This document shows positions 11,233 to 47,089 of a stretch of DNA of 47,296 bases, one piece after another. The notes beneath the pieces are model-generated. The model did not search any database. It saw nothing but the letters and a program-made list of their open reading frames with translations, and was not told the DNA's origin. Source of the stretch: Candidatus Jettenia ecosi (GTDB lineage: Bacteria; Planctomycetota; Brocadiia; Brocadiales; Brocadiaceae); contig SULG01000020.1 in NCBI GenBank assembly GCA_005524015.1, forward strand, positions 1-47,296, in the 5' to 3' direction. The stretch's first letter is position 1; the number at the start of each line of letters is the position of its first letter. A program made the position numbers and the translations under genes.

Positions 11233-12216
11233 CTACTTTGTTATTTCCAGCCAAGTATGCAAATCTCTATTCATTACATGAGATAAATTTTTTATGTCTT
11301 CTCTATAAATACCGAGTAAGAATTTTTTATCTTCGACGCTTAATTTAGGTTTTTTTTCATTCGTAAAAAATATTGATTTAATTTTTTCCCTGTACTCAAG
11401 GGGAAATAGTTTAATAGCTGATTTTTTTATCCCTGATTTTGAAATAATAAAATTAAAATATTTATTTTTTGGTATTTTTGATTCATTATATTTTTTTGAA
11501 AAATCTATAGTTATGTTAGGGTTTACCCCAATAAAACGAAACAAATCTTTTACGAGGAGCATCAAATCTTTTTTGTAATCATCATAAAAATATATCTTGA
11601 TGTTTTCTCTGGGAAAAACATCAAGATATCTTTTAACTTGCTGATAATACATACCCAGTTCGATATATAAATATTTCTTTCCCCATTCTCTCGTTTCCAA
11701 GGTATAATTACTTTCAACTTCTTCTCTAAAATTTTTAATAGTTTTCCCATCTCTCATATTTGCTAAATAATGAGAAAATGCTCTTTCCATGGGATTCCTC
11801 AACATCATAATGATTTTTACCTGCGGGAGTTTTTCTATAATATTTTTAGCTGCAACCTGAGAAAATAAGTACGAATTACTTACTTCTCCAATTGCTTTCT
11901 CATGTTTAACATTCTTAAATAACTTTCTATATTGCTCCCATTTTTGTACATAATCTCCCCATAATTTATTGTCCATATTCCCATTAAGGTATTCATCTAA
12001 ATCAATTCTTTTTTCTCTCTCATGTTTTTTAAAAGCTTTATTAAATTTTTCCGGTTCAATATCAGAGGAAAAATGGTTTGGTTCTTTTATCGGGCTCATG
12101 TATACGTCTGGATGCTCATCCAAGTAATTATACAATGAAGTTGTTCCAGATTTTGCCGCTCCTACTATAATAAAATTGGGTAATTTCGTGTCTTTATCCA
12201 AATTATCCAAGTTCAT
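11233..12216 (-). CDS. PAPS-dependent sulfotransferase 2
   Basis: The protein is 327 residues and cytoplasmic. The start is supported by AAGGAG about 10 nt upstream. The PAPS loop is AKSGTTSL (21-28), the 3'-phosphate motif is RNPMERAFSHY with R140 and S148, and the conserved KEPNHF lies between them. It has a Lys-rich insertion at about 55-90 that sulfotransferase 1 lacks. The two are probably a local duplication that then diverged, perhaps for different positions on the glycan. Confidence 0.86.
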   Translation of the reverse strand: MNLDNLDKDTKLPNFIIVGAAKSGTTSLYNYLDEHPDVYMSPIKEPNHFSSDIEPEKFNKAFKKHEREKRIDLDEYLNGNMDNKLWGDYVQKWEQYRKLFKNVKHEKAIGEVSNSYLFSQVAAKNIIEKLPQVKIIMMLRNPMERAFSHYLANMRDGKTIKNFREEVESNYTLETREWGKKYLYIELGMYYQQVKRYLDVFPRENIKIYFYDDYKKDLMLLVKDLFRFIGVNPNITIDFSKKYNESKIPKNKYFNFIISKSGIKKSAIKLFPLEYREKIKSIFFTNEKKPKLSVEDKKFLLGIYREDIKNLSHVMNRDLHTWLEITK

Positions 12217-45961: not shown

Positions 45962-46035
45962 GCCCCTATAGCTCAACTGAATAGAGCGTTGGCCTCCGGA
46001 GCCAAAGGTTGCAGGTTTGAATCCTGCTGGGGGCG
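45962..46035 (+). tRNA. tRNA-Arg (anticodon CCG)
   Basis: A cloverleaf of 74 nt can be folded. The acceptor arm is gcccctа-type at 45962-45968 with tggggGC at 46028-46034, the D arm contains gctcaactgaatagagc, and the anticodon stem ttggc/gccaa encloses loop ctccgga with anticodon CCG. The T arm is gcagg-tttgaat-cctgc. The discriminator is G, and CCA is not encoded. It reads CGG codons. An ORF on the opposite strand is an artefact of this gene. Confidence 0.92.
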
Positions 46036-46254
46036 CTTGTATCTCACAGGTTTCAAGGTATAAGTAAGGGTGGATTAAGGCGTTGGTTTTTACACCGAAT
46101 CCCACTAATACTATTTCCAGAAAAGGCGGATTCGCTATCGCTTAATCAGCCCTACCGCAAACCCGCTTCATGAAAATGAAAATTTCTCTACAATCAAGAT
46201 ACCCCGTATGAAGGTGTGGCATATGTGTGACGCAGCGCCTTCAAAATAATATTA

Positions 46255-46570: not shown

Positions 46571-46831
46571 TCAATTTTCTAATAGTCCTTTACTAATAAA
46601 GAACTTTAATGTTCGCTGAACATCCTCTGCTATATCATACTCTCTTGTCATAGAAAAGTTATCCCTTACAGCTTGCTCTATATCTTCTATGCTATGCTCA
46701 CCATCACAAAGTTCCCAAATGAATTTTGCTGTAGCATTAAGGACGTGAAATACCCGCTCCCTGGCGCTATAAATAAGCGTTTCACGTCCTATGTCTTGTA
46801 CAAAAATACCCTGTTTTCGGATAGGCATCAT
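46571..46831 (-). CDS. PqqD-like RiPP recognition protein
   Basis: The protein is 86 residues, the size of a stand-alone PqqD. The pattern of three beta strands followed by helices, with LNATAKFIWELCDGEHSIEDIEQAV in the middle and a C-terminal FISKGLL, matches the PqqD family (RiPP recognition element). Such proteins hold the leader of a precursor peptide and present it to a modifying enzyme, often a radical SAM protein. It lies 48 bp downstream of the candidate precursor gene on the same strand. No radical SAM, cyclase or transporter gene follows it in the window. Confidence 0.8.
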   Translation of the reverse strand: MMPIRKQGIFVQDIGRETLIYSARERVFHVLNATAKFIWELCDGEHSIEDIEQAVRDNFSMTREYDIAEDVQRTLKFFISKGLLEN

Positions 46832-46879
46832 TTTATCAATATCATCGTTCCTTATATCCTTTTTATTCGCGAAAAACCT

Positions 46880-47029
46880 TTATGACGCTAAAACTTCCAT
46901 GGGCATGTTCTGATGCATCGGCCGTTGTGATCTCATTGGTCTATGACGGACTAACTCTTCAAGAATCTCCTCATCGGTATAGGTAACCACACTGGGTAAC
47001 TCATATTCGGGTAATTTTTTTTCTTCCAT
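46880..47029 (-). CDS. candidate RiPP precursor peptide
   Basis: The peptide is 49 residues from the ATG at 47029, with GGA nine bases upstream and a promoter just before. A longer frame from 47089 would start upstream of that promoter's transcription start. The N-terminal half has an acidic leader-like stretch, ELPSVVTYTDEEILEEL (10-26), reminiscent of precursors found beside PqqD/radical SAM genes. The C-terminal half (28-49) is basic and repetitive: RPM at 30-32 and 36-38, MPM at 42-44, with His, Gln and Asn between, then EVLAS. There is no Cys, so lanthionine or thioether products are excluded. The leader/core assignment is inferred. Confidence 0.6.
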   Translation of the reverse strand: MEEKKLPEYELPSVVTYTDEEILEELVRHRPMRSQRPMHQNMPMEVLAS

Positions 47030-47059
47030 TTTGTATATCCTTTCCGTAAATAGGAATTT

Positions 47060-47089
47060 TTTATATGTAAACTTTCCGGTCTTATTCAA
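47060..47089 (-). promoter_or_regulatory. probable promoter of the precursor/PqqD operon
   Basis: On the minus strand TTGAAT (47084-47089) and TATAAA (47060-47065) are 18 bp apart. The start would fall near 47053, about 24 nt before the precursor ATG, with the ribosome site in between. Confidence 0.5.

Follow-up and report, generated by a model that had tools for sequence, protein, structure and literature searches.

The locus described here lies on the minus strand near the right end of the window, by which we mean the whole stretch of 47,296 nt that was analysed (G000:C20:1-47296). As the sequence-only reading had it, a gene for a 49-residue peptide is followed, after a gap of 48 bp, by a gene for a stand-alone PqqD-like protein; both ORFs are found at that place. 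The coding part of the peptide gene runs from an ATG at 47029 to 46883, and the stop codon occupies 46880-46882. The features are as follows.

46880..47029, minus strand: gene for the 49-aa precursor-like peptide MEEKKLPEYELPSVVTYTDEEILEELVRHRPMRSQRPMHQNMPMEVLAS, stop included (homologues, purifying selection)
46952..47029, minus strand: conserved leader, residues 1-26 (homologue search and alignment)
46988..47005, minus strand: YELPSV, a YxxPx[V] RRE-binding motif, residues 9-14 (Y9 and P12 invariant; motif defined in PMC13381572)
46883..46951, minus strand: divergent C-terminal part, residues 27-49, with LVRH instead of L-G-x-A-x-T (alignment against canonical relatives)
47038..47042, minus strand: ribosome-binding site AAGGA of the peptide gene (conserved in the genus)
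46571..46831, minus strand: stand-alone PqqD-family protein or discrete RRE, 86 aa (PF05402, 3.2e-11)

The ribosome-binding site reported earlier for the peptide gene is indeed present, and much of the region 5' of the gene, this site included, is kept within the genus. A promoter of its own, which had also been claimed, could not be upheld: four promoter-like sites were counted against 4.6 expected by chance in shuffled sequence, and a dedicated sigma-70 promoter was rejected because this count is not above chance. Intact, adjacent peptide and PqqD ORFs occur in five genomes of two genera, hereafter orphan-type genomes: the window's genome (G000, 3.86 Mb in 223 contigs), the other two of its genus (G001, complete and in a single contig, and G002) and two of a second genus, g4 (G005 and G012, the latter also a single contig). 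The spacer between the two genes differs by ~125 bp between species of the genus, being ~173-176 bp in the sister species (L062:9312-9487, L063:9728-9906) vs 48 bp in the window (46832-46882). The longer form contains a 17-codon ORF led by a ribosome-binding site, M[N/D]WLTISHCPYWRSGYH, and the short form places peptide and PqqD in one frame with a single TAA between them. A tRNA-Arg (CCG) precedes the pair in the window (45962-46036); in G001 (L062:6059-8600) an apparent integrase remnant and a HicA/HicB-like pair, recognised by eye, lie between the place of this tRNA and PqqD, both being absent from the window and from G002.

When searched against 98 related genomes, the peptide is found nearly unchanged in the two other members of its genus and as a ~60% identical homologue in each genome of the second genus (E 1.5e-12 and 1.5e-11 in G005 and G012). 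Residues ~1-27 alone matched dozens more family ORFs with different C-termini (E ~3e-8 to 1e-3), relatives having up to eight or so precursor copies per genome. Judged by these E-values, the acidic half earlier called leader-like is conserved far beyond chance, and it recurs with varied C-termini. Nine positions are invariant across a 21-row alignment (Y9, P12, T16, Y17, T18, E20, E21, E24 and L26), and the peptide has no matching family in Pfam or NCBIfam. A scan of 84,980 species, one genome each, returned 29 loci, nearly all of them named Candidatus Brocadia, Kuenenia, Brocadiaceae or Planctomycetota, and because of this naming we regard the leader family as one of Brocadiaceae (anammox bacteria). 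The same leader is found with PqqD in the relatives' clusters, which answers the earlier suggestion to look for conserved neighbourhoods. Two further genomes (G026 and G028) have peptide, PqqD and HprK one after the other, the arrangement of the window with a kinase added. On a 4.4-kb contig of a Brocadia MAG (MAG_8; G032, contig C87, L078) the orphan pair occurs as well, flanked by sequence that almost matches that of G001. This copy is probably a cross-genus contamination of the bin, and G032 was not counted as a third genus with the orphan peptide because near-identity of the contig to G001 makes mis-binning likely.

The window PqqD matches PF05402 (3.2e-11, 43.8 bits; cut-off 23.4) and falls under every curated PqqD equivalog cut-off (31.7 vs 46 bits). 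Its best PDB sequence match is LppB (9x8z, E 0.0013), in which an Asp hydrogen-bonds the leader Tyr and an Asn fixes the Pro kink (PMC13381572). In the alignment both residues (the equivalents of LppB D70 and N33) are kept, as is most of the hydrophobic pocket, LppB F74 being replaced by Thr. Two features of an LPP-type system are hence present, a YxxPxV leader motif (YELPSV, with Y and P invariant in 21 rows) and a discrete RRE with leader-binding pocket residues. In the earlier assignment the peptide has a leader of RiPP type and PqqD is the RRE cognate to it; the conserved YxxP, the adjacency of PqqD and the retained pocket bear this out, and by homology the first 26 residues are a genuine RiPP leader with a YxxPxV RRE-binding motif.

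A model of the leader-PqqD complex, proposed earlier as a check, was obtained with AlphaFold from the window's own frame, which extends from peptide to PqqD once its single TAA is replaced by Gly. This read-through fusion is a modelling device only, forced into one chain, and the alignment used leaders only. The model has a strand at leader residues 14-18 and then a helix at 19-28, at modest confidence (mean pLDDT 65 overall, 73 for residues 11-20 and 61 for 21-30), and the best PDB matches of the model in Foldseek are TbiB1 RREs solved with their leader. The check thus recovered a leader strand and matched RRE-leader folds, with the modest pLDDT and single forced chain weighing on the other side. 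The result supports leader binding at the level of a prediction, and the window PqqD most likely grips the YELPSV leader as an extra strand of its winged-helix sheet. Of the bootstraps of a PqqD tree, 86% have a branch that keeps the orphan PqqDs on the same side, with weak support (38/93); a single origin of the orphan type, with loss of partners, appears likely.

What these partners may have been is suggested by Brocadia- and Kuenenia-type genomes, in which the leader family sits with a PqqD of the same kind as the window's. Their clusters contain an HprK-related kinase of 380-400 aa (TIGR04352, 2.2e-17 over the P-loop region, below the family cut-off), an S24/S26 signal-peptidase-like protein of archaeal type (TIGR02228), a nucleotidyltransferase (NTP_transf_5, PF14907, 3e-30) and a PorU-like C25 peptidase with propeptide (1,050-1,100 aa; PF01364, 3.6e-93). 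This enzyme set closely resembles that of LPP RiPPs and not radical SAM chemistry. The radical SAM or YcaO class of maturase expected from the sequence alone therefore looks wrong; radical SAM chemistry was discarded for the leader family on the strength of these clusters, and no radical SAM maturase was recognised beside its precursors in the loci read. Among distinct precursors with enough upstream sequence, 17 of 41 lie 20-311 bp downstream of a gene for a secreted FN3-domain protein on the same strand.

L066-L074, L077, L080, L089, L097, L099, L105, L108 and L115, in relatives whose genomes also encode a PorU-like C25 peptidase: loci with a precursor downstream of an FN3-domain protein

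The proteins encoded directly upstream end in one shared domain (WETATEVDNAGFNLYR...STMHGP), which has no Pfam or NCBIfam match and a confident FN3-like fold (AlphaFold and Foldseek). FN3-domain proteins, precursors and the PorU-like C25 peptidase possibly form a linked system of peptide modification and surface sorting in anammox bacteria.

The C-termini set the two types of precursor apart. After the leader, L-G-x-(A/V)-x-(T/A) is found in all 38 non-orphan distinct precursors, 35 of which have strict L-G-x-A-x-T, whereas the orphan type never has this segment, in either form, and shows L-V-(R/Q)-(H/Y) in its place. This segment is a plausible site of cleavage or modification: G-x-A may supply positions -3 and -1 of a signal-peptidase site, and the Thr that follows may accept phosphate. 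The orphan C-termini of the two genera are almost completely different, with a faint common pattern V-R/Q-H/Y ... EVLA/EAL. The RPM/MPM units noticed earlier are present, yet in the alignment they are not conserved outside the genus and, as the two genera share only that faint pattern, they are a genus trait; the Met/Arg/His repeats are genus-level and carry little information on chemistry.

The partners themselves were sought by profile searches, fragmentation of genomes other than G001 and G012 limiting how absences are to be read. No HprK match was obtained in the three genomes of the window's genus, and the sole one in G005/G012 is weak (7.5e-5, in G012, at a lasso-like locus). The C25 peptidase gave no match in G000-G002, G005 or G012, and neither did the FN3-domain partner in any of the five orphan-type genomes. 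Of the 13 family genomes that have canonical precursors, 11 contain the kinase at >570 bits, and none of the five orphan-type genomes has it at that level (Fisher p 0.0025, uncorrected for relatedness). The window locus has no archaeal-type signal peptidase, the only homologue in the genome being a remote one at the C8 locus described below; no NTP transferase or transporter was recognised within about 9 kb in G001/G002, and a remote NTP_transf_5 homologue of the genus lies at C10, away from the locus. The orphan lineages thus lack segment and enzymes alike.

Despite these absences, the pair is under constraint. In comparisons among the genus's three species, PqqD has a dN/dS of 0-0.06 and the peptide one of ~0.12-0.18; the leader shows zero amino-acid changes and the C-terminal part of the peptide has a dN/dS of ~0.17-0.25 (small counts). 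Such low values indicate that both genes are maintained as proteins by purifying selection.

We therefore weighed several readings of the pair. The one that we consider rather probable is that it descends from an LPP-like system as an orphan leader-RRE module, kept without tailoring enzymes and serving as a binding pair, not as a maker of the ancestral product. Homology, co-occurrence, absence of partners and selection are observed; we infer from them the binding, the residue on which each partner acts, the direction of change by loss and the final role. PqqD would be the cognate discrete RRE of the peptide, holding its YELPSV leader. In the ancestral system the HprK-related kinase presumably phosphorylated the core, the signal-peptidase-like enzyme would have been the leader peptidase, and the nucleotidyltransferase and C25 peptidase would have been further partners. 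None of these partners is at the locus, two of them (kinase and C25 peptidase) are missing from the genome as well, and the peptide would have shed the L-G-x-A-x-T segment on which these enzymes may act. Since kinase, peptidase and site are absent, the simplest state would be a linear, uncleaved 49-mer held by the RRE. A more tentative proposal is that the complex of RRE and unmodified peptide is the functional end product of a RiPP pathway that has shed its maturases, the two parts acting as a binding or regulatory module that may, for instance, tune further YxxP-dependent RRE pathways such as C8. Against the orphan-module reading stand the AlphaFold model, modest in confidence (leader pLDDT ~61-73) and forced into one chain, the remote NTP_transf_5 homologue in the genus and the signal-peptidase homologue at C8, and two other RiPP-like loci of the window's genome, whose kinase-like and peptidase genes could act in trans.

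Maturation in trans by one of these loci is possible but doubtful. C8 and C30 are both present in G000, the C8 precursor leader is also of the YxxPx[I] type (SYKKPSI) and RRE motifs can be common to different pathways (PMC13381572). However, both loci come with a PqqD of their own and with another leader, the C30 PqqD of G000 is missing from G001/G002, the C8 signal-peptidase homologue was not found in the second orphan-type genus, and no trans locus common to all five orphan-type genomes was found. C8 (G000, L117:8778-12224) lies in an exopolysaccharide export region and encodes an HprK/ScmC-like protein, a PqqD, a radical SAM protein, a signal-peptidase-like enzyme and the YxxP precursor, likely MENLKVSTKQSYKKPSIKSEQLEMNVLANHGATCCCSGKSQSSFIQNAVSNWVS (11253-11417), with a Cys-rich CCC core. 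Its radical SAM gene is in two overlapping frames in G000 and intact in G001 (L120), and the locus also occurs in G001 and, by PqqD and signal-peptidase matches, in G002. The lasso-like C30 locus (G000, L118:8873-12316) encodes an HprK-like protein, a radical SAM protein, a PqqD and a lasso B2 peptidase, and its precursor ends EITGGFFGSFAPYE; no cyclase was recognised there, and its PqqD was not found in the genus's two other species.

That the pair is a decaying remnant, on its way out after loss of the system, we regard as unlikely: loss of the ancestral partners from the locus, the ~125-bp variation of the spacer between species and the near-complete difference of the core between the two genera fit decay, whereas the purifying selection seen for peptide and PqqD, the intactness of their ORFs in all five genomes of the two genera and conservation of the RRE pocket and of the upstream region with its ribosome-binding site do not. 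It is very improbable that the contig end truncates an otherwise complete RiPP cluster whose classical maturase would follow immediately to the right, as first supposed. The contig does end 267 bp upstream of the peptide start, but the same place in G001/G002 holds a glycosyltransferase/mannose-6-phosphate-isomerase gene and ordinary genes, and no radical SAM, YcaO, nitroreductase or kinase gene was seen there within ~9 kb. A glycosyltransferase could tailor a RiPP, yet this one is beside the pair in the genus and not in the second genus, for which reason it was dismissed as a conserved partner. Hardly credible is a small protein pair that merely resembles a RiPP, such as a regulator and its peptide ligand; the maturase and the canonical site are missing, but both leader and PqqD have homologues in full clusters with multi-copy precursors.

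The pair thus gives the impression of a natural-product system that has been pared down and put to a new use, not of a complete one. If the orphan-module reading is true, selection can preserve RiPP leader-RRE pairs after their tailoring enzymes have gone, a point of relevance to how genome miners interpret orphan RREs. Lineages with the full system and those with the stripped-down one offer a natural contrast that makes the roles of the kinase, peptidase and L-G-x-A-x-T testable. Through the pair one also comes upon an LPP-like system of anammox bacteria with FN3-linked precursors and a gingipain-like C25 peptidase, of which the literature searched gives no description; this full Brocadiaceae system, where precursors lie just downstream of genes for secreted FN3-domain proteins, is a more surprising discovery than the orphan pair.

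Several known systems share parts with the pair. PQQ biosynthesis (PqqA/PqqD/PqqE) has the PqqD family in common with it; the window protein is below the equivalog cut-off, there is no PqqE-type radical SAM protein nearby and the peptide is without the Glu-Tyr core of PqqA. SynChlorMet/GeoRSP radical SAM cassettes likewise have a PqqD-family chaperone, and their ScmC is HprK-like, but no radical SAM gene was found beside the leader family. Lasso peptides with a discrete B1 RRE (TbiB1, paeninodin type) have the same RRE fold and YxxP leader recognition, and paeninodin-type systems also have an HprK kinase and an NTP transferase; unlike them, the pair has no lasso core, and neither a macrolactam synthetase nor a B2 leader peptidase was recognised at the locus or in the leader-family neighbourhoods read. 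The closest comparison is with the linear polyphosphorylated peptides (LPP) of Bacillota, exemplified by lppAKBSDN of Paenibacillus alginolyticus (Popov et al. 2026, PMC13381572). There, precursors bear YxxPxV leaders whose Y and P are required for efficient binding, the HprK-like LppK phosphorylates Ser3 of the core, the signal peptidase LppS cuts the leader with the help of the RRE LppB, and the NTP transferase LppN and transporter LppD complete the set; motifs can be common to RREs of different pathways (PMC13381572). LPP systems share the YxxPxV leader and a discrete RRE with the Tyr-binding Asp and Pro-kink Asn with the window pair, and the HprK-like kinase, archaeal-type signal peptidase, NTP transferase and variable C-termini with the Brocadiaceae relatives, which add the C25 peptidase and secreted FN3-domain proteins. 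The phylum differs, and the consensus after YxxPxV is TYTDEE here vs LxHQxIxFET in LPP. The kinase, signal peptidase, NTP transferase and transporter were sought at the window locus and not found, for which reason the pair does not qualify as an LPP cluster; if it functions at all, it does so in the manner of the leader-RRE half of such a cluster.
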